Source of the DNA: Verrucomicrobiales bacterium
Lineage (GTDB): Bacteria > Verrucomicrobiota > Verrucomicrobiia > Verrucomicrobiales > DEV007
NCBI GenBank assembly: GCA_016795505.1
Contig: JAEUHH010000026.1
Span: 1 to 64,000, forward strand
Direction of reading: 5' to 3'
Length of the DNA stretch: 64,000 bases
In this document: positions 7,524-49,383 of the stretch, piece by piece
Layout of the letters: the number at the start of each line of letters is the position of its first letter
Position numbering within the stretch: position 1 is the first letter of the stretch
Translations under genes and position numbers: made by a program
The notes under the pieces: generated by a model
The model's database searches: none
Told to the model about the DNA's origin: nothing
The model's input: only the letters and a program-made list of their open reading frames with translations

Positions 7524-7550
7524 GTTCGCCGACGTGCGCGGCGCGATCAC

Positions 7551-30081: not shown

Positions 30082-30173
30082 GGATTCCGCCCCTCTGAAG
30101 CGGAACTCCCGCCGTTCGTGGGGGTTTCCTCGGGGTCGGGCGCTTCGGCCGGGCCATTTCACGCTGTCTTCCC

Positions 30174-31640
30174 ATGAAACTGACTTTTTCCACTGCCACG
30201 ATCTTCGCGTTGCTGGGTTGCCTTGCCATGGCGGTCGTGGCGGGGGCGGCGGAGTCGCGGCCGCACATCATCTTCGTCATGGCCGACGACATGGGCTGGG
30301 GCCAGACGGGTTACCGGGGCCATCCGCGGCTGAAGACGCCGCATCTGGATGCGATGGCGGCCAATGGGCTGCGCTTCGAGCGGTTTTACGCGGGCGGGCC
30401 GGTCTGTTCGCCGACGCGGGCGAGCGTGTTGACCGGTCGCACCCACGACCGGACCGGAGTGCTCAGCCACGGCTACGCGCTGCGACGGCAGGAGAGGACG
30501 ATCGCCCAGTCGCTCCGGGCGGCGGGGTATGTGACGGGGCATTTCGGCAAGTGGCACCTCAGTGGCTACCGGGGTCCCGGCGCGCCGGTGCTGCGGGATG
30601 ATCCGCGGGGGCCGGGGGCCTTCGGCTTCGACACGTGGACGTCGATGACGAATTTCTTCGACCGCGACCCGCTGATGTCGCGGCAGGGGGAATTCGTGGA
30701 GCTGAACGGCGACTCCTCGGAGATCGCGGTGGATGAGGCGGTGGCCTTTCTCGAACGGCATCGGGGCGGGAAGCAGCCGGTCTTTGCGGTGATCTGGTAT
30801 GGCTCTCCGCACAGTCCGTTTCGGGCGCTGGAGGCGGATCGGGCGCTCTTTTCCGATCTGGACGATGCCTCCGCGGATCACTACGGCGAGCTGGTGGCGA
30901 TGGACCGCAGCATCGGCACGCTGCGAGCGAAGCTGAGAGAGTTTGGCATGGCGGAAAACACGATGCTTGTCTTTTGCAGCGACAACGGCGGCCTGCCCGG
31001 CATCGAGCCGGGCACGGTGGGTGGGCTGCGCGGCCACAAGGGCTCGGTGTTCGAGGGCGGCCTGCGGGTGCCGGGCATCATCGAGTGGCCGGCGGCGATC
31101 CAGCCCCGGGTGACGAGTCATCCAGCCTGTGTGACCGACCTGTTTCCCACCGTGGCCGACATCGTCGGCCTGCCGGACGATGCGCTGCTGCGACCGGTGG
31201 ATGGCGTGAGCCTGAAGCCGCTCTTTGCCGGCGAGACGGGGCCGAGAACCGCGCCGCTGGGATTCCGCTACGCGAAAAAGGCGGCCCTGATCGACAACGG
31301 GCATAAGATCCTGACCGAAGACCTCGGAAAGGGCGTCTTTCACGTTTACGATCTGGAGACCGACCCGAACGAGACGACCGATCTGTCGGCCAGTCAGCCC
31401 GAATTGACGGCCCGGCTGCGCGAGGCCCTGCTGGCCTTCGACGCCTCGGTGAGCGCGAGCTTTGCCGGTCGCGACTATCCGGGAGGCGCTCTCAGCGAGC
31501 CCGATCCCGACCCGGTCTCCTGGCACGAGACGGAGGCCTACCGTCCCTATTTGGAGTCCTGGAAATCCCGCCGCGAATATGGCTCCACGATGGAGCTTCA
31601 GGCGAAGCGGGCTAAAGAACCGAAGAAATCCCCCAACTGA
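30174..31640 (+). CDS. secreted type I sulfatase 2
   Basis: 488 residues; signal peptide about 1-27 (TIFALLGCLAMAVVAGAAES). HIIFVMADDMGWGQTGYRGH supplies the first metal ligands, CSPTRASVLTGR the formylglycine site (Cys78, Arg82), then FGKWHLSGY and FCSDNGGLP. The C-terminus ends with ELQAKRAKEPKKSPN, a Lys-rich tail. It lacks the GK insert of the flanking sulfatases. Only 9 bp separate it from sulfatase 3, so the two are co-transcribed. Confidence 0.93.
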   Translation: MKLTFSTATIFALLGCLAMAVVAGAAESRPHIIFVMADDMGWGQTGYRGHPRLKTPHLDAMAANGLRFERFYAGGPVCSPTRASVLTGRTHDRTGVLSHGYALRRQERTIAQSLRAAGYVTGHFGKWHLSGYRGPGAPVLRDDPRGPGAFGFDTWTSMTNFFDRDPLMSRQGEFVELNGDSSEIAVDEAVAFLERHRGGKQPVFAVIWYGSPHSPFRALEADRALFSDLDDASADHYGELVAMDRSIGTLRAKLREFGMAENTMLVFCSDNGGLPGIEPGTVGGLRGHKGSVFEGGLRVPGIIEWPAAIQPRVTSHPACVTDLFPTVADIVGLPDDALLRPVDGVSLKPLFAGETGPRTAPLGFRYAKKAALIDNGHKILTEDLGKGVFHVYDLETDPNETTDLSASQPELTARLREALLAFDASVSASFAGRDYPGGALSEPDPDPVSWHETEAYRPYLESWKSRREYGSTMELQAKRAKEPKKSPN

Positions 31641-31649
31641 CCGACCGAT

Positions 31650-33491
31650 ATGTGGCGACGCACGCTTTTCCTGTCCTTGCTGATCACGTGGCTGACCTGT
31701 GCCGGCCAGGCCGCGCCGCCGAATGTGGTCGTCTTTCTCGCCGACGATGCCGGCTGGGGCGACTACGGCCATTCAGGTAATCCCATGGCGGTGACGCCGC
31801 ATATCGACTCGCTGGCGCGCGATGGCGTGTCGCTGGACCGATTCTATGTTTGTCCGGTGTGCGCGCCGACGCGGGCGGAATTCCTCACCGGCCGTTATCA
31901 TCCCCGCGGCGGGGTGCGGGGCGTGTCCACCGGCCAGGAGCGGCTCGATCTGGGGGAAAAGACGTTGGCGGACGCTTTCCAGGCGGCCGGCTATGCCACC
32001 GGGGCTTTTGGCAAGTGGCACAACGGCAGCCAGTGGCCCTATCATCCGATGGCGCGGGGCTTTGACGAGTATTTTGGGCATTCCTCGGGCCACTGGGGCG
32101 AGTACTTCGACGCGCCCCTCGAGGAGAATGGCCGCATGATCCGGACCAAGGGCTACATCGTCGATGTCTGCACAGACCGGGCGCTGGCTTTCATCGACAA
32201 GAACCGGGAAAAGCCCTTTTTCTGCTACGTGCCCTTCACCACGCCGCACTCGCCCTGGGCTGCGCCGGCAGAACTGTGGGCCAAGCACAAGGACCGTCCC
32301 CTCGCCGTGACCGCCACCGATCCCGCCCAGGAAGTGGCCGACGAGACGCGCTGCGTCCACGCCATGCTGGAGAATCAGGATTGGAATGTCGGCCGCGTGC
32401 TCGCCAAGCTCGAAGAGCTGGGGCTGAAGGACAACACGATCGTCATCTACTTTTCCGACAACGGCCCCAACGGCAACCGCTGGACCGGCGGGATGCGCGG
32501 ACGCAAGGGCACCACCGACGAGGGCGGGGTGCGCTCCGTCTGTTACTGGCGCTGGCCTGCGAAACTGCCCGCCGGACACACCGTGAAGCCGGTTTCCGGC
32601 GCCATCGACTTGTTGCCCACGATATTGTCCCTGGCGGGCGTGCCGCGGGCAGGAGACGCGCCACTCGACGGCCGCGACCTGTCGCCGCTGCTCACCCGGC
32701 AGACGGTGGAATGGCCTGACAGGACGATCTTTTCCACCTGGGCGGGCCGGATCAGTGCCCGCAGCCAAACCCACCGGCTCGATCATGAGGGCAACCTCTA
32801 CGACATGATCGCCGATCCCGGCCAGACCAAGCCGGTCAATGCCGCGGAGCCCGCCCTGGCCGCGCAGTTTGCCGACGCGGTGGCTGAGTGGCGAAAGGAG
32901 ATGTTTGGCGACGTCGCTCCGCCTCCGCCCGCGGCGAAAGGCCCCGCGAAAGGGAAGGGGAAAGCCGGCAAGAAAGGCAGTGGCGGTGGCGGACCTGGGA
33001 ATGCCGTCGATCCACGGCCGATTCCGGTCGGCTACCGGGAATTTCCCATCACCCTGCTGCCGGCCCGCGACGGCGAGCCGCGTGGTGGTGTCCAGCGCAG
33101 CTCCGGCGCGCCGAATTGCTCCTACTTTGTCAACTGGACCTCGACGGAGGATCGGCTCGTCTGGAAGATCCGCGTCGAGACGGCGGGTCGCTACGCGGTG
33201 AGCCTCGACTACACCTGCCCGGTGCCGGATGCCGGAGCCACGGTTGAGCTGAGTTTCCAGGGTAGTCAGCTCTCTGGCAGAGTGGCGCCGGGTTGGGATC
33301 CGCCGCTTTACACCAATCAAGACACGTTGCCGCGTCCGCCGGCCGAGTCGCAGATGAAGGAGTTCCGCCCCCTGGAGCTTGGCCACATCGACCTGCCGGC
33401 GGGTGAAGGGGAACTCGTTCTGCGCGCCACCGACATACCCGGCGGCAGCGTGATGGACCTGCGGCGATTGACCCTGACGCTGCTGCCTTGA
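31650..33491 (+). CDS. secreted type I sulfatase 3 with C-terminal carbohydrate-binding-like domain
   Basis: 613 residues; signal peptide MWRRTLFLSLLITWLTCAGQ. NVVVFLADDAGWGDYG and CAPTRAEFLTGR (Cys71 as formylglycine, with a second Cys at 68) define the sulfatase. FGKWHNGSQWPYHP and YFSDNGPNGNRW follow. After residue about 420 comes a Lys/Gly-rich linker (AAKGPAKGKGKAGKKGSGGG) and then a beta-sandwich-like domain (SYFVNWTSTEDRLVWKIRVE, AGRYAVSLDYTCPVPDAG) resembling carbohydrate-binding modules. The added domain could hold the enzyme on its glycan. Last of the sulfatase trio; an oxidoreductase gene follows 61 bp on. Confidence 0.92.
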   Translation: MWRRTLFLSLLITWLTCAGQAAPPNVVVFLADDAGWGDYGHSGNPMAVTPHIDSLARDGVSLDRFYVCPVCAPTRAEFLTGRYHPRGGVRGVSTGQERLDLGEKTLADAFQAAGYATGAFGKWHNGSQWPYHPMARGFDEYFGHSSGHWGEYFDAPLEENGRMIRTKGYIVDVCTDRALAFIDKNREKPFFCYVPFTTPHSPWAAPAELWAKHKDRPLAVTATDPAQEVADETRCVHAMLENQDWNVGRVLAKLEELGLKDNTIVIYFSDNGPNGNRWTGGMRGRKGTTDEGGVRSVCYWRWPAKLPAGHTVKPVSGAIDLLPTILSLAGVPRAGDAPLDGRDLSPLLTRQTVEWPDRTIFSTWAGRISARSQTHRLDHEGNLYDMIADPGQTKPVNAAEPALAAQFADAVAEWRKEMFGDVAPPPPAAKGPAKGKGKAGKKGSGGGGPGNAVDPRPIPVGYREFPITLLPARDGEPRGGVQRSSGAPNCSYFVNWTSTEDRLVWKIRVETAGRYAVSLDYTCPVPDAGATVELSFQGSQLSGRVAPGWDPPLYTNQDTLPRPPAESQMKEFRPLELGHIDLPAGEGELVLRATDIPGGSVMDLRRLTLTLLP

Positions 33492-35347: not shown

Positions 35348-35425
35348 TCAGACCGGGTAGGATCTCCGATCAGACCCTGTTGCATCGGAAACGGGTCGGG
35401 CATCGGGTCAACGGAGTTGCAACAG
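35344..35425. repeat. REP-like palindromic repeat, family 1, copy B
   Basis: Holds the core CCGATCAGACCCTGTTGCAT (35367-35386) and a distal TTGCAACAGGG (35417-35427) that can pair with CCCTGTTGCA, giving a larger hairpin. It overlaps the stop of the YdeI-like gene on the left and encodes the last residues (LLQLR) of the 221-residue protein on the right. Confidence 0.85.
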
Positions 35426-36073
35426 GGCCTTCCGGCGGGCGAGTTCCTCGGTCACGTAGGGTTGCCACGCTTCCCAGGATGACTCGGGATCGCCTCCGAA
35501 CCGGAGGGCGAGGCGCACAAGGGCGTCGTCGTGGCACGGGTGCGCGTCGCCGTGTTTGGCAATCTCGATAAGGAGGGGAAGCTCGATTTCGTCGGTCCTC
35601 AGAGTCATCGTTCTGAAAAATTGGGCCAGAGCGTCTGGGTTGAGGGTCGGATCGAGCAGCAGCGGTCGGATTCGGGTATCGAAGTGTTCGTCTCTGACCA
35701 AAGGAATCAACTCACGAGCCACTACTGCCTGATCCTCCCTTTTCACGGTTCGAAAGGCGTTGGCGATCGTGAGAGATACCTCATCAATGTCTGGAGACGA
35801 GGTGAGCCATTCGTGGAGGCGGACCCCGATTTCGCGATCATCCATAGGGACAGGGGTGTCGGTGGTAGGCTCGTTGGATGGAGGAGTGAACGTCAGTGCA
35901 TTTCTGGAGTTTGCGGAATTCTCGCCAGACGAGCTTTTGAGGGGTGATGGCGGCGAATCGTTGGAGTCGTTGTGATCGCCTTCCCGTCGAGACTCGAAGA
36001 GAATCCAAGCGGCAATCAGAATGGCTGCCGCCACAACAGTTGAGACGATTCTGGACATTGGAAGAGCTTTCAT
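35408..36073 (-). CDS. membrane-anchored protein of unknown function, downstream of the giant gene
   Basis: 221 residues from the ATG at 36073. One N-terminal membrane helix (SRIVSTVVAAAILIAAWILF) is followed by a Ser/Asn/Pro-rich linker (about 30-70) and a helical domain (EVSLTIANAFRTVKREDQAV, LLDPTLNPDALAQFFRTMTL, LALRFGGDPESSWEAWQPYV) with a HEAT-like appearance. I do not recognise the family. Its start is 8 bp after the stop of the 2747-residue protein, so the two are one operon and probably work together at the membrane or in the periplasm. Its last codons come from a REP-like repeat. Confidence 0.65.
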   Translation of the reverse strand: MKALPMSRIVSTVVAAAILIAAWILFESRREGDHNDSNDSPPSPLKSSSGENSANSRNALTFTPPSNEPTTDTPVPMDDREIGVRLHEWLTSSPDIDEVSLTIANAFRTVKREDQAVVARELIPLVRDEHFDTRIRPLLLDPTLNPDALAQFFRTMTLRTDEIELPLLIEIAKHGDAHPCHDDALVRLALRFGGDPESSWEAWQPYVTEELARRKALLQLR

Positions 36074-36081
36074 GGTTCCGA

Positions 36082-39000
36082 TCAATTCCCGCCGCCGCCT
36101 GCGACGATGTTCCCGCCACCGGCCGCAACGATGTTCCCACCACCGCCTGCGACGATGTTGCCTCCACCTCCCGCGACGATGTTGCCTCCGCCGGCTGCGA
36201 CGATGTTGCCGCCACCCGCTGCGACGATATTGCCGCCCCCGGCCGCGACAATGGCATTCCCGTTGTGACTCAGGACGTTTCCTCCGCCACCCGCGACGAT
36301 GGCGTTCCCGTTGTGGCTCAGAACGTTTCCACCCCCGGCTGCTACGATCCCGCCTCCGGTTCCACGCAGGATGGCATTTCCCGCTCCGGCAGGCGTGATG
36401 AATTGCGGATCGAGGGGCGGAACTTTTCCATTCAAGACAATGGGTGTCGCTGGCGGTAAGGAGTTGGAGACCCGAGGGGGTATCGCCTGCGGAGCATGGG
36501 CTGACGATTCCATGGTGTTTCCACCAGTCTTGATACCGTTGCCCCCTCCGCCCACGAGGAAGGTGCCGAGTGTCGTCAAGTTGGAGCCGAAGTGCTCGTT
36601 GATCAACGCATTGGGGATTTGAATGCCCTGCTTGTCGGCAGGATTCAGGACTACCACGCCATCGGGAAAGAACACGCCTTGCTGCGTCAGGGTGTAAGTG
36701 CCCGGTCCGGCGACAATCCTCAGGCCACTTTTCGGGTCATCCAACAGCACCCGGTTCGCGACTCCACCATTCTTGTAGTCGCCCAGCATGTAGCGGCTGC
36801 CGATGGCCATGACACGATCGAAGGGCAAGGGAATGAGCGAGGTCGAAAGCCCGGCAGGATTTGGCTTTAGCTGCAACAGGTTCGCGCCTCCGAATTGGAT
36901 GGTGCAGGAATTTGGCTGGGGCGAAAAGGTATCGCGAAGGAGGGCTTCCCCTGCGGGAGTGTGCTGCATCCCCATCCCCTCGATGGCGCCCTGGGTGACT
37001 TTTCCCGATTCAGCGTTGAAGTCTCCCTGGAGTACGGAGATGCCGATCGGACCGGGGGATTTGTCCATGGAGTTGGCGACGATCAATCGGCAGGAATTGT
37101 CTTCGATTCGAGTTCCCGGGCTTGCCGTTGCCACCAAGGTGATCTGACATGTTCCCGCTTCGGCTTTGAGCAAAGGCCCCAATGACCATCTCGCCGTTCT
37201 AGTCTTTTGGTTGTAGGAAAATGTCTCCAGCGATCTTCCGAACTCCTGAGTTTCGGCATGGTTGATATGATTGAAGTAGTAGTTCCCCGCGGACTTGAAT
37301 TCGCATCCGGTGGGAATTTTCATCTCTATGAAGGTAGGACCGAGAGGGAGGGACGTCAGGTTCCCCAGAAACATGGTGACTTGGAATTCCTCGCCCGTCT
37401 TCACTGCGATCGGTGCACACCGTCCCACGAATACTTTCGCGTCCTTTTCCGGATCGCTGCGCACATCGAGGAGAACTTCGGCCGAGGCCATCGCAATCGG
37501 CGGGCCGGTAATTCTTCCGGCGACGGCCGATTGCATCAGGTTCAGGCTGCCAGCCAAGGCGGCCACCGGGGACCCCTGGGGAAGGGAAATGCTTGATGGA
37601 TCGTTGAGAGAACGCAGAATCGCGGCGATGGGCGTCGGGCTTGTGACGTAGCGACCGCCAGTGATGACCGGATATACGGCAATGGGCCTGATGGTGTAGC
37701 CGTTCGAGTTCCTCAGAGCGCCAGCTGCCACATTCTGGTCGATGCGATAGTGGATCCAGGGAATCGAGGCGCGGATGTCTCCGGTGGCGTCCGGGTCATT
37801 TGCATTGACCAGAGGGGACGGGGCATTCGGATCGTTGAGGGGGATGCAGATTCGTTTCGCCCCATTCTTAAGGTTGGTGATTGTGATGGTGGAATTGGAG
37901 ATATTGGGGTCGCCGGGGCGTCTGAAGTTAGCGTCTTTCACCCATAGGCGGACGATTTCATTGTCTAGGTTGAAGAAGCGGATGCCCAGTAATTCATAGC
38001 CCAGTGGTAGATCGAAGCACATCTGGCTACCGACAACCCGCAACTCCGGGTTTCCCTCCATTGCGTAGGGGAAGCCGATCTCGACCTCCTCGGTGCCGTC
38101 GAGTGAGTCCCGGCTCCGCGGCTGGTCCTTCTGCGTCAGTGTGGTGGTGATCGGGTCAGCGATCTGAACGGTCAGCTTGTCGGGCTCTCCATTCACGGGG
38201 AAATGGAGGGACTGGCAGGTCAGATAGTAACCCGGCTTCAAGACATAATTCAGTCCCTCGGTACCCTTTTTGACCGCCCCGCTTACTCCGCCACTGACAG
38301 TTTCGATCTTGGTCCCCACCTTGGGCTCTCCCTTGACCTTGAGTTGGTAGATGAAGGTGCCGGAAGCTCCGGGAGCGAGGTTGCCCACATATAGTTCCAC
38401 GCTTCTCACCAAGGGGATGGTAGAGGGAGTGAGATTCTCAATCTCTCTGCCTTTGGCATCATAGAAGTGGTGCAGGTTTTCGAGGTCTTGCTGGGAAACC
38501 AGATCGCCATTTTTTGCCACGAGGCCTTGGAACTCGACATTGGCGGGGAGGATATCCCGGACGTAGACTTCCCGTGCGGTTGTCGTGCCGGTGTTGTGGT
38601 ATCCGAGGAGATAGCTCATCGCACCGTCGATGGCGCTGGCCTTTGTGTTGATCAGGAAATAGAGGTAGTCATTCCCTTTTGGGATGCTGGACAGAAGAGT
38701 GTATTTGAACTCTCCGTTGGGAATCGATTCATCTCGAGGGCCAATGGGGACTTTTCGGAGCGTGAGGCTGGGGAGTGATTCGTTCCCCGATTGGAGTTGT
38801 GTGACGGTGCCTCGCGAGGGTGGCGCCTTGGGGTTGATCAGTGGAAGCAGTGCTTCGGGGGCGGAATTCAAGGCGATGGCCGATCTGTCTTTTGCGGTTC
38901 CGTAGACGAGAAAGGGTGTTGCCGAGATGTGGCCCACCGCGTTGAAGCCGTGGTTGAGGATGCGCGTATGCACTGTCCCCTTCGCGACCAGACTAAAGTA

Positions 39001-42000
39001 GTCGACCGGCACATCGGCGCCGATCTGTACTCGGTAGCGCATCAGGCGATGTTCTCCCGGCGGCAGGGGATCGGGAAACTCCCAATAGAGGAACGGCTTG
39101 TCGCCCCGGAAGTAGGCCGGTCGATTCCCGTCATCGGTACTGGTCGTCAAGGAGATCGCGGATTCCTCGGCCCCGACGAAGTTTCCCCCGGAGCCGATCA
39201 GGCGGGCGCCCAACAGAGTAGTGCCTTGTGGGATGGCATTGACGACTCGAATCGCTTCGATGGCGGTAGACCCCCAGTTTGTTGCCTTTAGGGTATACTC
39301 AATCACCTCGCCGGGGGAATAAACCGTGAATCCTGAGTGCGATTCGTCCCTGTCGGTCGTGACGGTGAGGGAAAGGGGCGGCTCCACATCGGTAATAAAG
39401 GGCGTTGCCTTGATGAGATTTCCGCCCGGTCGTTGCGCTGTAGCGGTCGCGATGATGGAATCTTTGACACTATTGGTCGTCACGGTGGCCCGAAAGAAGG
39501 CATGCGGATGGAATGAACCGGAGGTGGTCGATACGCCGGGACCGAGATTTGGAATGGTCAATTGAACGCGTCTCGGTTTCTCCAAAACGAGCACCTCCAT
39601 ATTGGTGACTGGATCTCCGGTCAGAGGGCCCTCGAGGATGGTTTTAGCGGGCACCGGGAAGGTGACTTTGATATCCCTGATGGGAATCGTGCTCTTGTTC
39701 ACTATCTCGGGGAACCAATGGATTGACTCGTTGAACCGAACGGTCCGACCCGAGGAGTCGCTGGTGGTTTCGACTTTGGTGAATTCGAAGGAGAGCGGTT
39801 CACTCACCGTCAATTTTGGCATGAACGACGAGGCGGCGGTCTTCCCTCTCCGGATGACGTTGATCGGAACGATCGGCGTGCCGATTTTGGCCGTTGGCAG
39901 GATCCTGACGCGGAATTGCTTCACCCCGGCTGCTCCGGGTGGCAGGGTCTCGGTCCAGCGAATGATGCGAGTGGCTTTGGCGACCAGGATCTGATGCCCT
40001 GGATCGGCTTGGACGGGAGGCGATTCCAGTGTCGGCGGGAGCACGCAGTCGATGGTCGCGTCGGTCAGTGTGTTGGGCGTGTTGTTGGCATAGCTGACGG
40101 TGTAGTCGATGAACTCGCCGGGATAGGCTTTGTAGGTGAGAATGCCGTTCGGTAATTCTGTGCCGTCGGGATCGGACTCGGTGAAAAGGCCGCCTTGGAT
40201 TTCGAGGGGCTTGGAGAGCTTCGAGTAGCGGTTGAGGATCCACTGGAGGGATGGAGTCGATCCATTGGCCAGCACAATGTCTCGCTGTCCGGTGTTGCCG
40301 TGGCGGCCGGTGGCGAGACGATGGGGATTCCGGGCATTGGTGGGCAAGACGGTCTCGAATTGATCGAATCCCACCAGGGCATTCATCGGATCGAGACGGG
40401 AGTTGATCCGGACGACCAGAACCCCACCGGGCTGCCCGCCGGGAGCTGGGGGTGTCTCGAATTGGCTGGTGAAAATCAGCTCGGGGAAACGGTCCCCATT
40501 CACATCCGCGAGGATGACGTGGGATCGGAAATCGGTGGGGCCGGCGCCCTGTGGGCCTTCGCCAACTGGATACATCTCATTGCCCCTCAGACTGCCATCG
40601 GGTCGCGCGTCAAAGAGCTGCCAAAGCTGATGGTCGCGGATGTCGTCGGGATCATTCTGATTCCGGCTGGCGAAATGGTGCAGGACCACCACCGCGTCGG
40701 CGCGTCCGTCGCCGGTCACGTCTCCCACCGCGAGCGCCTGAGCCGGGAGTGGCGGGAACCCGGTGACAACCGTCTTCGCGGCGAACTCGGGATCACTCTC
40801 GGTGGCGCTGCCGAAGCCGCCATTTTGCTTGTTGCGAAAGGTGATCAGGCGATTGCCCGCCGTGTCGACCATGACGGCGTCGAGCCAGCCATCGCCATCG
40901 ACATCGCCCAGTTTCACCAGACCGGGATCGGCGCCGATGGGGGCAGTGGCACTGTTGGCGCCGGTGAGATGGAAATCGGGAGTGTTGATGATGACGGCCA
41001 CCTTTGCGACGGTCCCGCCCATCCCATCATCGCCGGTCCCGGTGATGACGATGTCCGGCCAGCCATCGGCGGTCACATTTCCCACCGCGCAATGGGTGAT
41101 GTTCGCGATGCCGGCACCGAGCAGACCGCCCACCGCGATTTCGGAAAACTGCAGCGCGCCGCCTCCATCGACGCCGTCGTTGCGGAACACCTTCAGCGTG
41201 CCGTCCACCACGATGGCGATGTCCGGCCGGTCGTCGCTGTCGAAATCGCCAATGGCGCTGTCGGTGATCGAACCCGGCGTCAGGAAAAAGCTGTTGTCGG
41301 TGAAGGCACCGCCGTTTCCCTGTCGGCGCACCCTGACCTCGCCGGTGGTGCGGTCGATCTGCAGCACATCGTCGCCCTGACCCTCGTCATCGAAGCGGGC
41401 AGCGAACAGGCCCCGGCAGTCGATGGCATCACCAGCGAGCGGCACGATGCTGGAGAAGCGCGGCTCCAGATTTGGTCCCGGTCCATAGGGGAAAGGAACC
41501 CTGAAGGTGCGGCGCTGAAGGGGGGACTTGTTGCCGGCCGCGTCCACGGCCCGGACCTCAATGACGATGGAGGTGCAGTTGAAACCCACTGAAAAGGGGA
41601 TGCCGCGCTGCCAGGCCCACTTCTGCCATCCGCCGTTGCCGGGAATCGGCGCGGTGGAATTGAGGACACTGCGGAACTCGATGGCGGTTTTCGGATTGTC
41701 TTCCGATAGGCCCGGATCGAAACCGGTCTCATCCTGGGGGTCCAGCAGCATCTTGAAGAAGGTGACCTTCCCCGCCTTTTCCATCCAGGTGTGGGTGATG
41801 TTCAATGTCGGCGGGATGGTGTCGATCACCGGCCGCTCGATCAGGATGGAGATGGTGACTTCGTTTTCGTCCTGAAATTCGGTCTCGGACGATTCATACC
41901 CAGGCGCCTCGGCTACGACGCGGAAGTAGCGATTGCCAATCGGTGGATTCACGACGGACAACACCCAAGTGTTGCCGCTCCGGGTCATGGCGCTGCCCGT

Positions 42001-44325
42001 GGGCAGATCGGTCCAGCTCAGCGGATCGTTGGGATCGAGGGTGGACTCCACGCGGAGCACCAGACCATCCGCCATGGACTCCTGATCGATGGAAAAGGTC
42101 CAGGGCAGGTCGCTATTCCCGGGAATGATGGTGAAGTTGGAGGATTCGGGCAGCACCGGCAGCGAGGTCGGTTCCATTTGATCGACGATGACGGTGAACT
42201 GCCCGAAATTTCCTTTGTTGGTGAAGGCATCGAAGGAACCCAGGAAGAGGCGGGTCGCCCCCTCGGGGACACGGAAGTGCTGGGTGTTTAACTCGTCGTC
42301 GAGGCCGTCGCCGATGAAGAAGGGCTGGCGGAGCCCGGGCTGTAGGATCGGAAGGTTCCGGTTGTCCGGGTTGCTGAAATCGAGAAGCAGGGATGGAGCG
42401 GGTTGGGCCGGCGTGTCGTCGTTCACGAAGACGCCCACAAGCGCATTTAGAGGGGCGGACATGGGTCCGATTCCGTTCTCGGGACTGTGGTTTGCTGCAT
42501 CGCCGCCGTCGGGACCGGTCGTCCCTGGGTCGGGCCCGTTGTGGGTGCCACCGAAGACCTGGAAGACGAGATCGTGTCCCGGAACGAGGGCAATGTCGGC
42601 GAGAACGGGGGATTGGGCGAAGGCGACATCTTCTTCTTCCGCAGGCGTGAATTCCGGCTGTCCGGAAAGCCAGAGATTGGCTTCGCCGGGGACGATCAGC
42701 GATCCGGGGACGGCCAGCGTGCCGGGGTGGGCGAAGGAGGGGGAGTCGACCTCCGCAGAACTATCGCCGGCAAGGACCACCCGGGGATTGTCCGGGTTGT
42801 TTTCGGGAGCGGTGGCGTTGAGTGAGACGATCCGCTTGTGGCCCGACGGCGAACCGTCGGCGTAGTCGACAAAAACGATCTTGGAACCATCCGGGCTCCA
42901 GGTGGGCGCATTGTCGACAAACATCGGAGGATCGATGAAGTAGATGGGATCGCTGAGGTATTGGCGGAGATTGGAAGATTGGTGCTCCGGTAGGAGAGCC
43001 CCGGCATTGTCGCGGATTGTCAGGGTGGCGATGGCGATCTCAGTGACGAAACCGTTGACCGGAGGGTCGCTTCCGGGAAGCGTTCCGGTGTATTGCTTGG
43101 TGGATTGGAAGGCGATTTTTTTTCCATCGGGGCTGAAGGACGGCCATGCCGCGCGGCCAACTATTTGGGAAGTAATGGGAGGGAGGGGACTTCCGATCAC
43201 GCTGGCGGTTCGATTCCCGCTCTCATCGAATACTTCCAGAAAGGCGAGATCGGCGCCAAATTGGCAGACGAGCAGATCTCTTCCATTGGGCGAGAAGGCG
43301 CAGTCGGTTACCCATACCACGCTCTGGTCATCCGTGAGCGACTCTGGTGTGTCGATGACCGGTTCACCCTGGTCGTTCAGGACTTGAACGAGATAGACCT
43401 TATTATCGTTCCCAATGTAGGCCACTTGGCCACCCGCCGGATGCCAGGAAGCGCGCTTAAGATAGGAGGCGTCCGGTCCGACCAGTTGTGGTGCATTGGA
43501 GAGGGCGTTATACGGTTCCGCTCGCATCAGCCAGAGACCGTTCTCGAAGGTATCCCAATTGATTCCGGTGAAAACCAGCCAATCTCCTCCTGGGCTGAGT
43601 TGCACGTCGAGGGCGTCGAAATCGGTTGCAGCGAGGCCTAAGGCATTCTTCCCGGAGCCGTCGGCCGCCATGAGCCAGATTTCGAAATCGGCAACATAGG
43701 CGATCTCCTTTCCGCCTGCACCTCCCCCGCCCGTATCTGCGAAACCGTAGGAGATTTTGTCGATTCCCCCGACTTCGTTGGCTGCCGAAACTCTCGCGAT
43801 GGCATAAGCGATTTCGTTGCTGCTGCGACGGATGCCGGCGAAAGAAGCGACGCTCCCTCCCGACCCTGCCGCCGGGAACAGCGCGGATTCGAGCAACTGT
43901 CCCTGTGAATCGTAAACTTCGATCGCATTGTCGCCGAAGGTGGCATCCCACCAGGAGAATCCCACCTCTGCGACTGGGGTTGCAAAATTGATTCGGATAT
44001 CGGAATAGGGGAAAGAGAAAAGGACGTCCGGATTGGCCCGCAGCAGCCGTCCCGAGACCAAGTCCGCGGGCGGCGAGTAGCCGTCGGCCGAGGGTTGGTA
44101 GATATGGAGATTTTCCACGCTGGAAAAAGTGAGGCCACTGATGGTGAGAGGATTAGCAGCAACGCCAAGGGTCTGGTCGTCGAAGTCGATTTCCGTGTTA
44201 CCGGGTGACAGTTGGGAACGGTCGGTCAGCTCCAAAGCCGGAGTTTCGTGACACAACATCAGAAAAGCGGCCAGGATGGTGCGTTTGCTCCACGAGGAAG
44301 TGATCGGAACTGAGCGAGGTTGCAT
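36082..44325 (-). CDS. giant secreted multidomain protein (propeller, FG-GAP and DUF11-like repeats)
   Basis: 2747 residues, signal peptide about 1-32 (RTILAAFLMLCHETPALE). Order read by eye: a beta-sandwich-like domain (35-195); a TolB/PD40-like propeller (about 205-560; AWPSFSPDGKKIAFQSTKQY, APTWSPDGSKIVFVDYADGS); a pre-peptidase-C-like and mixed beta region (600-990); FG-GAP/VCBS repeats (about 1020-1290; LGDVDGDGWLDAVMVD, VGDVTGDGRADAVVV, LADVNGDRFPELIF); DUF11-like modules (about 1400-2420; YSPGEVIEYTLKATNWGSTA, SYLLGYHNTGTTTAREVYVR); and a Gly/Asn repeat to the very C-terminus. DGDG segments suggest calcium binding. A surface or secreted adhesin-like role is the likely reading. It diverges from an ECF sigma gene 141 bp away and heads an operon with a 221-residue protein. 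Confidence 0.8.
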   Translation of the reverse strand: MQPRSVPITSSWSKRTILAAFLMLCHETPALELTDRSQLSPGNTEIDFDDQTLGVAANPLTISGLTFSSVENLHIYQPSADGYSPPADLVSGRLLRANPDVLFSFPYSDIRINFATPVAEVGFSWWDATFGDNAIEVYDSQGQLLESALFPAAGSGGSVASFAGIRRSSNEIAYAIARVSAANEVGGIDKISYGFADTGGGGAGGKEIAYVADFEIWLMAADGSGKNALGLAATDFDALDVQLSPGGDWLVFTGINWDTFENGLWLMRAEPYNALSNAPQLVGPDASYLKRASWHPAGGQVAYIGNDNKVYLVQVLNDQGEPVIDTPESLTDDQSVVWVTDCAFSPNGRDLLVCQFGADLAFLEVFDESGNRTASVIGSPLPPITSQIVGRAAWPSFSPDGKKIAFQSTKQYTGTLPGSDPPVNGFVTEIAIATLTIRDNAGALLPEHQSSNLRQYLSDPIYFIDPPMFVDNAPTWSPDGSKIVFVDYADGSPSGHKRIVSLNATAPENNPDNPRVVLAGDSSAEVDSPSFAHPGTLAVPGSLIVPGEANLWLSGQPEFTPAEEEDVAFAQSPVLADIALVPGHDLVFQVFGGTHNGPDPGTTGPDGGDAANHSPENGIGPMSAPLNALVGVFVNDDTPAQPAPSLLLDFSNPDNRNLPILQPGLRQPFFIGDGLDDELNTQHFRVPEGATRLFLGSFDAFTNKGNFGQFTVIVDQMEPTSLPVLPESSNFTIIPGNSDLPWTFSIDQESMADGLVLRVESTLDPNDPLSWTDLPTGSAMTRSGNTWVLSVVNPPIGNRYFRVVAEAPGYESSETEFQDENEVTISILIERPVIDTIPPTLNITHTWMEKAGKVTFFKMLLDPQDETGFDPGLSEDNPKTAIEFRSVLNSTAPIPGNGGWQKWAWQRGIPFSVGFNCTSIVIEVRAVDAAGNKSPLQRRTFRVPFPYGPGPNLEPRFSSIVPLAGDAIDCRGLFAARFDDEGQGDDVLQIDRTTGEVRVRRQGNGGAFTDNSFFLTPGSITDSAIGDFDSDDRPDIAIVVDGTLKVFRNDGVDGGGALQFSEIAVGGLLGAGIANITHCAVGNVTADGWPDIVITGTGDDGMGGTVAKVAVIINTPDFHLTGANSATAPIGADPGLVKLGDVDGDGWLDAVMVDTAGNRLITFRNKQNGGFGSATESDPEFAAKTVVTGFPPLPAQALAVGDVTGDGRADAVVVLHHFASRNQNDPDDIRDHQLWQLFDARPDGSLRGNEMYPVGEGPQGAGPTDFRSHVILADVNGDRFPELIFTSQFETPPAPGGQPGGVLVVRINSRLDPMNALVGFDQFETVLPTNARNPHRLATGRHGNTGQRDIVLANGSTPSLQWILNRYSKLSKPLEIQGGLFTESDPDGTELPNGILTYKAYPGEFIDYTVSYANNTPNTLTDATIDCVLPPTLESPPVQADPGHQILVAKATRIIRWTETLPPGAAGVKQFRVRILPTAKIGTPIVPINVIRRGKTAASSFMPKLTVSEPLSFEFTKVETTSDSSGRTVRFNESIHWFPEIVNKSTIPIRDIKVTFPVPAKTILEGPLTGDPVTNMEVLVLEKPRRVQLTIPNLGPGVSTTSGSFHPHAFFRATVTTNSVKDSIIATATAQRPGGNLIKATPFITDVEPPLSLTVTTDRDESHSGFTVYSPGEVIEYTLKATNWGSTAIEAIRVVNAIPQGTTLLGARLIGSGGNFVGAEESAISLTTSTDDGNRPAYFRGDKPFLYWEFPDPLPPGEHRLMRYRVQIGADVPVDYFSLVAKGTVHTRILNHGFNAVGHISATPFLVYGTAKDRSAIALNSAPEALLPLINPKAPPSRGTVTQLQSGNESLPSLTLRKVPIGPRDESIPNGEFKYTLLSSIPKGNDYLYFLINTKASAIDGAMSYLLGYHNTGTTTAREVYVRDILPANVEFQGLVAKNGDLVSQQDLENLHHFYDAKGREIENLTPSTIPLVRSVELYVGNLAPGASGTFIYQLKVKGEPKVGTKIETVSGGVSGAVKKGTEGLNYVLKPGYYLTCQSLHFPVNGEPDKLTVQIADPITTTLTQKDQPRSRDSLDGTEEVEIGFPYAMEGNPELRVVGSQMCFDLPLGYELLGIRFFNLDNEIVRLWVKDANFRRPGDPNISNSTITITNLKNGAKRICIPLNDPNAPSPLVNANDPDATGDIRASIPWIHYRIDQNVAAGALRNSNGYTIRPIAVYPVITGGRYVTSPTPIAAILRSLNDPSSISLPQGSPVAALAGSLNLMQSAVAGRITGPPIAMASAEVLLDVRSDPEKDAKVFVGRCAPIAVKTGEEFQVTMFLGNLTSLPLGPTFIEMKIPTGCEFKSAGNYYFNHINHAETQEFGRSLETFSYNQKTRTARWSLGPLLKAEAGTCQITLVATASPGTRIEDNSCRLIVANSMDKSPGPIGISVLQGDFNAESGKVTQGAIEGMGMQHTPAGEALLRDTFSPQPNSCTIQFGGANLLQLKPNPAGLSTSLIPLPFDRVMAIGSRYMLGDYKNGGVANRVLLDDPKSGLRIVAGPGTYTLTQQGVFFPDGVVVLNPADKQGIQIPNALINEHFGSNLTTLGTFLVGGGGNGIKTGGNTMESSAHAPQAIPPRVSNSLPPATPIVLNGKVPPLDPQFITPAGAGNAILRGTGGGIVAAGGGNVLSHNGNAIVAGGGGNVLSHNGNAIVAAGGGNIVAAGGGNIVAAGGGNIVAGGGGNIVAGGGGNIVAAGGGNIVAGGGGN
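36085..36357 (-). repeat. 24-bp and 48-bp in-frame repeats at the 3' end of the giant gene
   Basis: The DNA encodes GGGIVAA, two 16-residue units GGGNVLSHNGNAIVA(A/G), then six 8-residue units GGGNIVA(A/G) and a final GGGN directly before the stop. The 24-bp units (on the plus strand GCCTGCGACGATGTTGCCTC-like) differ mainly at third codon positions, so the protein repeat is better conserved than the DNA. Confidence 0.92.
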
Positions 44326-44466
44326 GGCAGTAGAATGGTGAAGAGCAGGTCCTGGGTTTCGGATTCGGGAATCGGAAAAATCTCCGGCTTCTGGGAGATT
44401 ACCGTTTGGCTCTTGTTTGTTTCAGGCCCGTCTGTAAAATCTGCCGGGAATTTTCGAGTCATTTGC

Positions 44467-45192
44467 ATGGGTTCCGCCAATCCCCAGTTCCCCACCACGA
44501 AATGGACCCTGATCCGCAAGGTCCAGAAGGGCGACGACCGCGAGGCGACGGCGGCGATGGAAGAGATCTGCCGACAATACTGGTATCCCGTCTACGCCTT
44601 CAACCGGCGCCAAGGGTTCGGCGAGGCGGATGCGGAGGACCTGACCCAGGACTTTTTCCGAGCGCTCGTCAGCCGTGAGACCATCCAGGCGGCGCGGGAG
44701 GAGAAAGGCCGCCTGCGATCCTTCATGCTCAACATGCTGCGCGAGATGAACGCGAATCACCTGCGATCGCGCGCGGCGGAAAAGCGGGGCGGAAAGGCGG
44801 TGATCGTTTCGTTGGATGAGAAGATCGATGCGGAGGAGCGCTATCGTCACGAACCCGCCGGGATCAGCGACCCGGCGCGCCTCTTCGACCGGGCCTGGGC
44901 GGAGCGCCTGCTCGCGGCGGCGACGGAACGGCTGCGCGAAGATTTCGAAAAGGGTGAAAACCTGGACGACTTTGAACAACTCCGCGAGTACCTGCCGCTC
45001 GGAGAGAATGCCACCCCGTATGCCGACGCCGCCCGAAAGCTCGGAGTGAAGGAAGGGGCTCTGCGACTGCAGATTCACCGGATGCGGAAGCGCTACGCCA
45101 AGCACCTCGAAGCAGAAATCGCGCAAACCGTGGCCGATCCCGCGGAGCAGAGGGCGGAGCTGGCCTATCTGCTCGAGGTGGTGGGGCGGTGA
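44467..45192 (+). CDS. ECF-type sigma factor (Planctomycetota/Verrucomicrobiota kinase-linked kind)
   Basis: 241 residues from the ATG at 44467 (MGSANPQFPTTKWTLIRKVQ). Region 2 reads YWYPVYAFNRRQGFGEADAE followed by DLTQDFFRALV, the core-binding and -10 helices; region 4 reads YADAARKLGVKEGALRLQIH followed by RMRKRYAKHL, a helix-turn-helix. ECF sigma factors of this kind are often encoded beside Ser/Thr kinases rather than anti-sigma factors. Here a receptor kinase gene converges on it from 754 bp away, with a RAYT element inserted between, and the giant surface protein is divergent, making that gene a plausible target. Confidence 0.82.
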   Translation: MGSANPQFPTTKWTLIRKVQKGDDREATAAMEEICRQYWYPVYAFNRRQGFGEADAEDLTQDFFRALVSRETIQAAREEKGRLRSFMLNMLREMNANHLRSRAAEKRGGKAVIVSLDEKIDAEERYRHEPAGISDPARLFDRAWAERLLAAATERLREDFEKGENLDDFEQLREYLPLGENATPYADAARKLGVKEGALRLQIHRMRKRYAKHLEAEIAQTVADPAEQRAELAYLLEVVGR

Positions 45193-45194
45193 GA

Positions 45195-45282
45195 TCAAGG
45201 AGCAGGGGCGCCCCCGCCCCTGTTTTCGAAAGACAAATGACACTCAACAAGATGACAGGGCCGGGGGCGGCCCTGCTCCTTG
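45195..45282. repeat. REP-like palindrome, family 2, left copy
   Basis: Starts TCAAGGAGCAGGGGCGCCCC and ends with the imperfect inverse CGGCCCTGCTCCTTGG; the two arms pair over about 25 bp with a loop of about 40 bases. It begins 2 bp after the sigma-factor stop and ends 7 bp before the RAYT start. The same sequence, with a shorter loop, follows the RAYT. Confidence 0.92.
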
Positions 45283-45289
45283 GAGATTC

Positions 45290-45940
45290 ATGCATCCCGC
45301 GCCAAAATTCTTCAATCCCTACGCGGAGATCGAAGTCACCGCGAACAACCTGCCTCACTGGCAGCAGCCGGGAGCCACCTACTTTATCACCTTTCGATTG
45401 GCTGATTCCATTCCGGCAGTGCGCCGCGAAGAATGGGCGGAGCACCGTGCCGTTTGGCTCGCCAACCATCCTGAGCCATAGTCGCCTGAGACCGAAAGGG
45501 AATATCACCGCTTCTTCAGCGCCCAAATCGATGCCTGGCTGGATGCAGGTGAGGGGGAATGTCTCCTGCGAACTCCGGCCTTGCGTGAACCGCTCGTATA
45601 CACCCTGCGACAGGGAGACGAAACTCGCTATCGGCTCCACGCTTGGATCGTGATGCCGAACCATGTTCATGTGCTTGTCACTCTGGCGGAGGAGGCCAAA
45701 CTCGAAAATGAAGTCGGTGCCTGGAAAAGCATCTCAGCTCGTCGAATCAACCGTCTTCTTGGGCAGTCGGGAGCTGTGTGGCAGGAAGACTACTTCGACC
45801 GGCTCGTGCGGGACCGCGACCATTTCGCGAATTGCGTCCGCTACATTCGCCGCAATCCGGAGAAGGCGCGGTTGCCGGAGGGGAGCTACGAGCTTTTCGA
45901 GAGCGAACTGGCTTTGCAGTTCGCGCCCCGGGAGGGTTGA
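45290..45940 (+). pseudogene. RAYT transposase interrupted by an in-frame UAG
   Basis: A single frame of 216 sense codons runs from the ATG at 45290 to the TGA at 45938, broken by TAG at 45479-45481. Translated through, it reads NHPEP-stop-SPETEREYHRFF, where related RAYTs have Trp after PEP, so a TGG to TAG change is the simple explanation. Downstream, HAWIVMPNHVHVLV gives the HUH nickase site and CVRYIRRNPEKARL the segment with the likely catalytic Tyr; both are intact. The gene is bracketed at once by two palindromes of the same family, the standard REP-RAYT arrangement. It is probably an inactive Y1 transposase. Confidence 0.85.
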
Positions 45941-45945
45941 AAAAG

Positions 45946-46012
45946 TCAAGGAGCAGGGGCGCCCCCGCCCCTATTGGGTGGTGACAGGGCCGGGGGCGGC
46001 CCTGCTCCTTGA
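45946..46012. repeat. REP-like palindrome, family 2, right copy
   Basis: TCAAGGAGCAGGGGCGCCCC, a 15-base loop region (ATTGGGTGGTGACAG), then GGCGGCCCTGCTCCTTGA. Its arms match those of the left copy. On the minus strand this repeat encodes the last residues and the stop codon of the Ser/Thr kinase. Confidence 0.92.
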
Positions 46013-49000
46013 GGCAATTCCAGGGTCTCGATGGATTTCACCAGCACTCCCTTGGTCAGCACCACCGCGCACCGTCCTTCTTTCAGCACGGAATGCCTCG
46101 CCGAAGCGTGGAGTTCGCCGTCGAGGACAAGGTCGAACTGGTCCCCGATGAAACGAAATTCGAGAGTGTGTTCGGACCGGGCGCGCAAAGGCGCGGGGAG
46201 CGGTCGATCGAACAGGCGGAACGAATGCTCCGCGTCGGCGGGGACGTAGGCAATGAGATAGTTCTCCCCGGTGTAATGTGCCAAATAGAGGTGGCGACCG
46301 AGTGCATCCCTCCTCTCCCGGGTTGTGATTTGCACGCCCTCCGAATCCCTCATGGCAAAACGGATGCGAACCGCTCCGTCACGGGTGCCTTCGGGTAAAA
46401 CGGCGATGCCTTTCAATGACTGGTCTGTTGTGATCCCCCCATCTTCGCGGATCCATCCGTCCCCTTGGAACATGTTCGGGTCCGCGAGTTTCTCTCCGAG
46501 CCAGTCGGTCCAGATGTCCTGACCGACCGCGACCGGTGAATTGCCCCGATACTCCTCCACCGGCTTCCCATTGATCTTCTTCAGCGTCGGAATGGAGAGT
46601 AGGATGGGAAGGTCGCGTTCCGGAACGAGGTCGACATCCACTTCGGCGAGTGGGAAGGCCTTCAGAGGCGTGTGGTCGGTGATGCCCGTGCCCGCGAGAA
46701 CCAGGCGGTTGAGTGGCATGTCGGAGAGGAAGGAGAGGTCTTCTAGAGGGCAGCCCTGTAAACTGAGACTACGCAGGGGTATCCCGGCGAGTGCCTCGTA
46801 GGTCCGGGGCGGTTTGTCAGGTGTGCCGAGGGTGAGATAGGTGACTTTCGATTCGCGCAGTATGTCGAGATTCTCCACCTCCGCATGTTCCAACTGAAGG
46901 TGTTCGATCGGCAATCCGCGCAGCCACTCCAGATCGCGGACCCCGGGGGCATAACAGAAAAAGATTTTCAGATCCGTTAGCGCTGCCACGGGAGAAAGGT
47001 CGTGGAGAGGACTGCCGCTTATCTGGGTGATGGTCAAGGCAGTCACCTTGCCGCCTTCGATCGTCGCTTTGAGCGATACGTCGTTTCCATTGATGGACTC
47101 GAGCGCCGCCTCGACGATCTCGACCTGGCGCTCCGCGTTTGCTTCCTTGACCTGCCCCCAGAAGCTTTCGCGCATCGTCTGATGCAGCGACTCGGACAAA
47201 GGAGCTACCTCCACGGAATGCACCACCGACTGGCGCACCCACATCACCGATCCGCTTCCGTTGGCGAATGTGTTGTCCCTCACCTGACCGGCCGGGCGCC
47301 CGTCGACCCAGGCGCGGAAAAGGTTGTCTTCGACCGTTGCGACCAGTTCGTGCATCCGATTGACGTCGAAGCCGGAGGGATGGGGACCGCCCGCTTCCAG
47401 AATCGCCGCTTCCGTCGCGCCGGTGTCATGCCGGTGGATCAGGGTTTTGAGCTTTTGATTGAGCACATAGATCATGCCGTGATCACCACCACGGAGGTTG
47501 ATCTGGGAGTCCGCGGAATGCCGGATGCGGATGGCATAGTTCCGCCAGGAAGGGTCCGTCACGGAGATTCCCACCGGCGATCCATCACCCGCTCGCCGGA
47601 TGCCGTCGGGTTCGACTACCAGAGCAGGATTGGCGGCGGCTTCCTCCCGCACCTTCGCGGTGATGTCGGTCCAGGAAGTGCCGTCCATGCCGGAGATCGG
47701 AGAACTCTGACCGATCTGCTTCGGTTCGGTGGATGTCGGGGAATCTAAAGAAGCTTCCCCGGGCGAACCCGACTCTGTGACTTCGCGGAGGACGGCGCGG
47801 TGGAATGTGATCGGCAATAACGGTCCCGCCATGATGCCGACCTTGGCCGGATCGTCGAGGGTAAAATCGGAACCGAGGGCGAGGCCATTCAAGAAACTCG
47901 ATGTCACGGGCCATTCCTCAACGATCTCGCCGTTGATCTTGGTGGTCACCCGATCCTTTCGCACCTGCACCAGCACTACTGCGCGCTGTCCCTTCCGATA
48001 GTAGGGCGTCGGGCGTCCATTGTGGCCGAGGCGGACATGCATGGGTACGCCGCCTACTCCGGCCAGACCGGCGACATAACCCGTGCCCCCATGAACGTTC
48101 ATGATCAAGGCAGTTTGCTTTCCGCCGATCGAAAAAGCGATGCCGGCATCCAGTTCCTCCGATTCTGCGGTGAATTCGACTTCGAAGTCATACTCAGGAG
48201 GTGGCACCTGTGCAAACTCCACCCTCGGATACCCCCCGCGCGCACCCGGAATAATGCCGTTTCCCAACGTTTTCAATCCACCGGGATCCGAAAACCAGGT
48301 GCCGGCGATCACGTCGCGTTCAAGGTCCACGGTTTCGAGCAGGCCAATCTCCGCAGGCGGCGCCACGGTGGGAATGGGCTCCGGCTGCGACACGACCATC
48401 CCTACCCAGACTCCCACTGCCGCGAGTGCGGCGAGACAGGCGATCAGCACCCCGGCTTTCCCCCGTTTTCGAGTGGGCTCCATCGGGGGTGAAGCCGCGA
48501 GGGTGGCTTCTGACATCCGTGCCAGTCGCGTCGTGCTGATCTCGACCAACTCCGCCCGCACCTCGAGCGCGCTTTGATAGCGTTCCTCGCGATCGGGCTC
48601 GAGGGCTCGGCAGATGACTCCGTCGAGGCGGGGATCGATTTCCTGATACCTCTGCGAGGGCAGCTTGAACAGACCGCGCGGCACCTCGCCAGTGAGCATC
48701 TGGTAAAGCATCACGCCTACCGCGTAGAGGTCGGCCCGGTGATCCACCGTCATGCCCATTGAGAGCACTTCCGGTGCGACGAAGTCGGGCGTGCCGAGCG
48801 CGACATTGCTCATCGTCAGCCCGCTGTCGAAAATCGGATCGACCATCTTGGCGAGTCCAAAGTCGGCGACCTTCACTTTGCCCTCCTGGTCGATCAGCAC
48901 GTTGGCTGGCTTGATGTCGCGGTGCACGACGCCGCGCGAGTGCGCGTAGGCCAGCGCGTCGCAGACGTGAGCCGTGACGGCGAGGGCGTAGTCTTCGCTG

Positions 49001-49383
49001 AGCCGCCCATTAGCTTGAATGAGCCGATGCGCATCGGTGCCATCGACGTACTCCATCACCAGATAAAGCAAGCCGTCCGCCGTTTCCCCGAAGTCGTGGA
49101 TGTGGACGATGCCCGGGTGATTGAGCCGGGCGAGCGTTTCGGCCTCGTGTCGGAAACGCTCCGCGAACTTCAGCTCGTCATCGGCGGTCGGCGGCAGGAC
49201 CTTGATGGCAACGGTGCGCTTCAAGGAACGCTGCACCGCGCGATAGACCGCGCCCATGCCCCCGCGGCCGAGGAGGGACTCCACCTCATAGGCAGGGATC
49301 GCGGCGGAAAGCCCTTCCGCGGACGGCGGCTCCCAGATGGGGGCGCCTCCGGGAGGGTTGCCGGTATGTTGGGTTTGGTTCAC
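45946..49383 (-). CDS. receptor-type Ser/Thr protein kinase with LamG-like and leucine-rich extracytoplasmic domains
   Basis: 1145 residues. Kinase domain about 32-300: G-loop LLGRGGMGAVYRAV, Lys61 in TVAIKVL, HRDIKPAN (His154-Asp156), DFG at 174-176 and VAPEVLS; all catalytic residues are present. One membrane helix follows near 313-335 (VLIACLAALAAVGVWVGMVV). Outside are two LamG/DUF1080-like domains (about 355-540 and 575-720), a leucine-rich stretch (about 760-930; HLQLEHAEVENLDIL, LRSLSLQGCPLEDLSFLSDM) and a third LamG-like domain (945-1125). Beyond SIETLELP the C-terminus (GAGPPPALSPPNRGGGAPAP) is encoded by a REP-like palindrome, so the native end has been replaced. It converges with an ECF sigma gene and probably controls it. 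Confidence 0.88.
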   Translation of the reverse strand: MNQTQHTGNPPGGAPIWEPPSAEGLSAAIPAYEVESLLGRGGMGAVYRAVQRSLKRTVAIKVLPPTADDELKFAERFRHEAETLARLNHPGIVHIHDFGETADGLLYLVMEYVDGTDAHRLIQANGRLSEDYALAVTAHVCDALAYAHSRGVVHRDIKPANVLIDQEGKVKVADFGLAKMVDPIFDSGLTMSNVALGTPDFVAPEVLSMGMTVDHRADLYAVGVMLYQMLTGEVPRGLFKLPSQRYQEIDPRLDGVICRALEPDREERYQSALEVRAELVEISTTRLARMSEATLAASPPMEPTRKRGKAGVLIACLAALAAVGVWVGMVVSQPEPIPTVAPPAEIGLLETVDLERDVIAGTWFSDPGGLKTLGNGIIPGARGGYPRVEFAQVPPPEYDFEVEFTAESEELDAGIAFSIGGKQTALIMNVHGGTGYVAGLAGVGGVPMHVRLGHNGRPTPYYRKGQRAVVLVQVRKDRVTTKINGEIVEEWPVTSSFLNGLALGSDFTLDDPAKVGIMAGPLLPITFHRAVLREVTESGSPGEASLDSPTSTEPKQIGQSSPISGMDGTSWTDITAKVREEAAANPALVVEPDGIRRAGDGSPVGISVTDPSWRNYAIRIRHSADSQINLRGGDHGMIYVLNQKLKTLIHRHDTGATEAAILEAGGPHPSGFDVNRMHELVATVEDNLFRAWVDGRPAGQVRDNTFANGSGSVMWVRQSVVHSVEVAPLSESLHQTMRESFWGQVKEANAERQVEIVEAALESINGNDVSLKATIEGGKVTALTITQISGSPLHDLSPVAALTDLKIFFCYAPGVRDLEWLRGLPIEHLQLEHAEVENLDILRESKVTYLTLGTPDKPPRTYEALAGIPLRSLSLQGCPLEDLSFLSDMPLNRLVLAGTGITDHTPLKAFPLAEVDVDLVPERDLPILLSIPTLKKINGKPVEEYRGNSPVAVGQDIWTDWLGEKLADPNMFQGDGWIREDGGITTDQSLKGIAVLPEGTRDGAVRIRFAMRDSEGVQITTRERRDALGRHLYLAHYTGENYLIAYVPADAEHSFRLFDRPLPAPLRARSEHTLEFRFIGDQFDLVLDGELHASARHSVLKEGRCAVVLTKGVLVKSIETLELPQGAGPPPALSPPNRGGGAPAP

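Follow-up and report, generated by a model that had tools for sequence, protein, structure and literature searches.

The stretch of DNA analysed here (the window) comprises 64000 nucleotides of contig JAEUHH010000026.1 from a Verrucomicrobiales bacterium, whose 6.5 Mb genome is distributed over 120 contigs. An initial annotation had described a gene for an ECF sigma factor that diverges from the gene of a 2747-residue surface-like protein (hereafter the giant) and converges with that of a kinase. All three genes were found at the places and in the orientations claimed, and this layout was borne out. The features of the locus, with positions counted from the first nucleotide of the window, are as follows.

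35408–36073, minus strand: partner protein of 221 amino acids with an N-terminal membrane segment (ATG at 36073)
36082–44325, minus strand: giant secreted protein of 2747 amino acids
36085–36348, minus strand: DNA for an octapeptide tail, a 24-bp tandem repeat with the consensus [ILV]-[VI]-A-A-G-G-G-N
44400–44423, minus strand: promoter-like motif GAAACAA-N13-GGTA, 74 bp before the ATG of the giant
44467–45192, plus strand: ECF sigma factor of 241 amino acids, with regions 2 and 4 alignable across 17 relatives
45195–45282, no strand: REP-like hairpin (inverted repeat), left of the transposase
45290–45940, plus strand: frameshifted remnant of a REP-associated tyrosine transposase (Y1_Tnp, E 3e-9)
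45946–46012, no strand: REP-like hairpin (inverted repeat), right of the transposase and overlapping the 3′ end of the kinase gene
45946–49383, minus strand: transmembrane Hanks-type Ser/Thr kinase of 1145 amino acids (Pkinase, E 1.6e-53)

The coding start of the ECF was assigned to the ATG at 44467, the open reading frame listed from 44320 being too long, and from this corrected start the divergent intergenic region between the ECF and the giant measured 141 bp. Three adjacent sulfatase-like genes lie upstream of the locus (28552–33491) and a fourth is present at 57034–58419, all of them called by N-terminal sequence.

The N-terminus of the giant gave a weak signal for a signal peptide. Domain matches placed PD40 propeller repeats at about residues 210–534 and FG-GAP repeats at about 834–1505, followed by DUF11-type domains and then the C-terminal octapeptide tail. 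The protein is putatively displayed at the cell surface. The ATG of the 221-residue partner is located 8 bp beyond the stop codon of the giant on the same strand, and it is because of this gap only that the partner is taken to be co-regulated with the giant; relatives of the partner adjoin tail-bearing genes in L025, L026 and L064. No homologue of the giant was detected at E ≤ 1e-10 in the three further members of the genus or in 55 further genomes from the family. Segments homologous to it did occur outside the family within the order, chiefly in f4, and in several of the genomes concerned they likewise had an ECF and a kinase as neighbours. The G+C content across the locus (36001–48000) was 0.58–0.63 compared with 0.61–0.68 for most of the window. 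The patchy distribution together with the lower G+C suggests that these genes may have been gained by horizontal transfer, at which the lower G+C combined with the absence from the sampled relatives of the genus also hints. With regard to the flanking genes in relatives within the genus, an OmdA-like gene was found at a contig edge in G002 and the FCD regulator on other contigs in both G002 and G003; as the flanking genes in these two genomes were never on one contig, a date for the insertion was not obtainable.

The kinase contains a catalytic domain at residues 32–236, with HRD at 154 and DFG at 174, and a single hydrophobic segment at 313–331 as its transmembrane part. The outside part consists of two homologous jelly-roll-like modules (B and C), separated by a stretch resembling LRRs. 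The initial annotation had called this part LamG-like and leucine-rich. In the window kinase neither description was confirmed by Pfam, which gave no match for modules B and C, including to LamG or related jelly-roll families, and for the repeat stretch returned LRR_4 alone with a weak E of 0.11; an LRR domain was found in relatives, with LRR_14 at E 1e-13 in the kinase of L173. Among kinase relatives the outside parts carried 3-keto-disaccharide-hydrolase domains (strong in two relatives, best E 1.7e-46) as well as LRR and FGE-sulfatase domains. A profile built from the two outside domains and their relatives (seven sequences) gave a weak match to the carbohydrate-binding modules of levanases (E 0.0016). 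Together with the strong matches in two relatives, this makes it plausible that the ectodomain binds sugar and points weakly to a glycan as the signal of the kinase. A single-sequence structural model of the ectodomain had a pLDDT of 36 and was discarded.

For the ECF, the scores against known families were modest, at E 3.8e-7 for TIGR02937 (under its cut-off) and 20.2 bits for PF07638 against a cut-off of 21.1. When the ECF was searched against 289 genomes of the order, 16 sequences at 52–100% identity were returned, after which identity fell to ≤47%. On the tree these 16 sequences and one 47% sequence (L138), which belongs to the window's family, formed a 17-member clade that includes the window ECF (support 0.992), outside which were placed the five ECF paralogues of the bacterium's own genome and 13 more distant ECFs; the position of the window ECF within the clade was weakly supported. 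Only two of 387 genomes sampled across the phylum passed E ≤ 1e-66, both of them in Verrucomicrobiales, and from these searches the clade seems to be confined to the order. The DAED motif was kept in 16 of the 17 members, with TAED in L138, and DAED or DAQD was present in most of the distant relatives. Four candidate phosphosites are conserved in the clade, namely Thr11, Thr60 (directly following DAED; 16/17), Ser115 in the linker joining region 2 to region 4 (17/17) and Thr221 (16/17). Since Thr11 and Thr221 are equally conserved across all of the ECFs compared, conservation alone singles out no regulatory site.

The arrangement of kinase, ECF and giant recurred in other genomes of the order, conservation of this neighbourhood having been one of the checks suggested in the initial annotation. 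A kinase adjoined the ECF in all 15 testable clade members, convergently in 14 and in tandem in L138; G083, at a contig edge, and G186, where the convergent gene is a fragment at a contig edge, were left out of this count. The catalytic domain was on the contig in 13 of the 15, the other two (G077a and G151d) showing only the part homologous to the ectodomain. At the 14 distant-ECF loci used as controls (L183–L196), a kinase was adjoining in most, mostly in tandem, and convergent at just four (L183, L185, L186 and L187). The combination of TAED with a tandem kinase in the member from the window's family is located at L138:1049–1792. On the other side of the ECF, the immediate divergent neighbour was at least 1144 amino acids long in 13 of the 17 members (the window, G083, two in G077, G135b, G171, G145, G149, G151b, G151d, G151e, G217 and L138), that of G217 being cut off by the contig end. 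The large protein came after one or two smaller genes in G186 and G151c, the divergent neighbour in G135a was a second kinase, and the layout of G151a was irregular. The giants of the clade had segments in common, not whole lengths, and their N-terminal parts differed strongly in some cases: domain matches identified peptidases of astacin type (G149) and of M6 type (G145), a region resembling Vps10 (G151e), and C-type lectin together with LamG domains (G077a). Beside the clade ECFs no gene for an anti-sigma factor was recognised.

A shared promoter motif upstream of 44325 had been suggested as a check of the circuit, and GAAACAA-N13-GGTA was indeed present there, reading towards the giant with the same spacing as in relatives. 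In the divergent regions inspected, GAAACAA was followed 13 bases on by GGTA or a near variant, again reading towards the giant. With the window excluded, GAAACAA was the commonest 7-mer of the divergent regions (9/15), compared with at most 4, and in one case 5, over 100 mononucleotide shuffles. The exact motif was found in G083, G171, G186, G077 and the window, and seven further members had near variants at an identical spacing; one-mismatch matches are expected by chance at 0.21 per window. Exact copies in the bacterium's own genome numbered two, one at this locus and the other (C108:13653) not upstream of any called gene. With one mismatch allowed there were 28 sites, below the 70 of the backwards control, so no larger regulon can be claimed. 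In twelve other genomes, 17 exact sites were found, of which seven were at loci of the clade: four precede the giant (G077:C50, G083, G171 and G186), two in G135 precede a second giant and a TPR-like gene, and one in G186 precedes a TPR-like gene. This share (7/17) far exceeds that of such loci in those genomes, and as the 17 hits were not above the backwards control (36), the matches elsewhere are mostly due to chance. A relaxed pattern, composed after the sites had been seen, matched 15 distinct places in clade loci, two hits in overlapping loci being counted once each, and one place at a control locus, which lay within a gene. No motif site reading towards the ECF was found, and autoregulation through GAAACAA-N13-GGTA is thus not indicated.

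A REP/transposase insertion separates the ECF from the kinase; neither it nor the octapeptide tail of the giant was mentioned in the initial annotation. The Y1_Tnp reading frame is split into two pieces, and the REP-like hairpins on both sides have inverted-repeat arms of 27–28 nt. The last ~20 codons of the kinase, GAGPPPALSPPNRGGGAPAP, come from the right-hand hairpin. In the G171 kinase, the last domain of which is 55% identical, homology stops four residues short of the protein end; with homology ending this near the C-terminus, the insertion seems to have replaced the original 3′ end of the kinase gene. A Y1_Tnp gene is likewise located between kinase and ECF in G151 (L178:3490–4092). The element resembles known RAYT/REP elements in that a Y1_Tnp with REP-like hairpins on either side occupies the interval between convergent genes. 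It differs from them in that its transposase is frameshifted and the kinase gene takes its 3′ end from one of the REPs.

The tail of the giant was analysed separately. Its units include variants such as LSHNGNAI, and LIGQDGAS is a further variant of the repeat. A DNA pattern of two adjacent units matched 72 stretches among about 85000 species genomes, and occurred in seven of 191 relatives, where the backwards pattern gave no match. At least three units in register were held by 70 of the 73 open frames with the pattern, and in the 66 frames with their own stop codon the array ended within 50 residues of the C-terminus in 52 and within two residues in 20. These tails were found in Verrucomicrobiota, Planctomycetota, Acidobacteriota, Bacteroidota, Proteobacteria and Actinobacteria (loci L036–L107), on bodies that, as read by eye, differed between ricin-type lectin-like proteins, repeated small domains and DUF11 giants. 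No family in Pfam or NCBIfam was matched at E ≤ 1 by three tails, hits to PDB sequences were at chance level, and searches of the open literature for the motif strings returned nothing bar one unrelated peptide. A model of the C-terminus of the giant from a six-row alignment had a mean pLDDT of 44.7, leaving only the eight-residue strand rhythm of the tail usable, and a Foldseek search of it against the PDB gave nothing at E ≤ 0.001. In this low-confidence model a strand of three to four residues recurs about every eight residues, which is consistent with a solenoid or a cross-beta stack. Tail-bearing giants were located beside a clade ECF in the window, G050, G077:C40, G077:C50, G135 and G171, and two genes off in G186; others had no clade ECF nearby (G077:C14, G077:C47, G083:C42 and G157). 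Short near-palindromic repeat arrays (GCAGAATGATTCTG-like) are present beside tail-bearing giants of G077, at L025:about 7230–7800 and L026:9323–9664. The tail-less giants of the clade (G145, G149 and G151; L173 and L175–L179) end in another, mutually similar domain, ..YTRNK..VEW..RRFVRLKVTR, which may serve as an alternative end for sorting or anchoring. Large secreted proteins with short C-terminal repeats rich in glycine are also known from RTX and comparable tails. The octapeptide tail is like RTX in these respects, but its period is eight rather than nine, Asp occurs at position 5 in only ~18% of units, and no RTX family was matched.

The initial annotation had combined the three genes into a circuit, with the kinase sensing a glycan and activating the sigma factor, which turns on the giant and its partner. 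Two sequence-level checks, on the neighbourhood and on the motif, might each have refuted it, and it passed both. The layout of this circuit stood, the anatomy, the conservation of the arrangement and the motif with its placement being established by sequence comparison, whereas its biochemical steps are ones that we infer. The best explanation, which we consider probable, is that the locus is a self-contained sense-and-display module in which the kinase acts on the ECF and the ECF on the giant via the motif. Through its modular ectodomain the Hanks kinase would sense a signal from beyond the cytoplasmic membrane, and it would activate the ECF, probably by direct phosphorylation. The active ECF would guide RNA polymerase to the GAAACAA-N13-GGTA site between the ECF and giant genes, and transcription would drive the giant and, by read-through, the 221-residue partner. 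Activation of the sigma factor by the kinase is proposed by analogy with EcfP/PknT and EcfK/PknS, where direct activation of the ECF by the kinase is established (PMC8999054, PMC13147305). The regulon looks local because there are few other motif sites in the genome. The proposed output varies by genome, with propeller, FG-GAP, lectin-like or peptidase-bearing giants, on a constant kinase–sigma–promoter wiring. Several observations count against this module. No clear motif was found in five of the 17 clade members (G135a, G151a, G151b, G151e and L138), the motif-to-ATG distance is 74 bp in the window compared with about 12–50 bp in most relatives, and the 3′ end of the kinase gene has been altered by the insertion. 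In EcfP, a threonine takes the place of DAED and, once phosphorylated, re-establishes contact with RNA polymerase (PMC8999054, PMC13147305); as DAED is intact here, a switch of this type is not expected and another mechanism must be assumed.

The intact DAED also bears on an alternative in which the ECF drives the giant via the motif and the kinase modifies other targets without acting directly on the ECF, whose activity would be set by its own transcription or by another partner. With DAED kept in the clade the ECF could bind RNA polymerase unphosphorylated, and the kinase, being convergent, is not co-transcribed with it. Nevertheless, a kinase adjoins every testable clade ECF and most distant relatives, no anti-sigma gene was recognised beside these ECFs, and other DAED-bearing ECF groups are also kinase-linked (PMC8999054), so we regard this alternative as unlikely. 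The motif might instead belong to another regulator or sigma factor, the genes staying together for other reasons such as cassette transfer, and the clade loci without the motif, the patchy distribution in the order and the G+C below that of the flanks would fit such an origin. We give this little credence: in its two-part form and its spacing the motif matches ECF promoters, it tracks the clade and, save for one match inside a gene, it is not found at control ECF loci. It is very improbable that the insertion has broken the circuit and that the locus is decaying in this genome. The kinase frame does end in a REP hairpin, with about 20 extra residues and a broken transposase beside it, but none of the three main reading frames is interrupted, the kinase retains HRD and DFG, and its last outside domain is intact up to the homologous end. 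Furthermore, with a similar transposase gene in the kinase–ECF interval of G151 (L178), an insertion at this position seems to be tolerated.

Taking the sense-and-display module as the preferred reading, we tentatively suggest, as a possibility that may well not hold, that it is an exchangeable cassette: a fixed kinase–sigma–promoter switch, with kinase-dependent activation that does not involve DAED (e.g. through the linker serine), could serve any adjoining giant, and the undescribed cross-phylum octapeptide tail on many of these giants could assemble or anchor proteins outside the cell. The tail is a separate lead, as a recurrent multi-phylum C-terminal module without a Pfam or NCBIfam entry. 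How DAED-bearing kinase-linked ECFs are activated is an open question (PMC8999054), for which this clade offers a clean test case, with a defined sigma factor, an adjoining kinase, a conserved linker serine and a predicted promoter that has very few other sites in the genome.

The pairing of an ECF with a Hanks kinase without an anti-sigma factor is of a known kind (PMC8999054, PMC13147305). The locus resembles ECF43 (EcfP/PknT of Vibrio parahaemolyticus and EcfK/PknS of Xanthomonas citri) in its adjacent transmembrane Hanks kinase and lack of an anti-sigma factor. In EcfK, linker residues are also phosphorylated (PMC13147305), and the clade ECF similarly has conserved Ser/Thr in its linker. 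However, DAED is kept here where ECF43 has the phosphorylated Thr, the kinase is convergent, and the output would be a divergent giant rather than the polymyxin resistance or type VI system of EcfP and EcfK. Other kinase-associated groups are ECF59, ECF61, ECF62, ECF217 and ECF283, which are kinase-linked with DAED kept or similar and whose model members are mostly from Planctomycetes (PMC8999054); like them, compared by description rather than by group models, the window ECF is kinase-linked with DAED kept. A conserved convergent kinase, a divergent giant and a mapped motif set the present clade apart from these groups, and have no description in PMC8999054 or PMC13147305. The kinase–sigma–promoter wiring of this locus is a new arrangement of the known kinase-linked ECF type.
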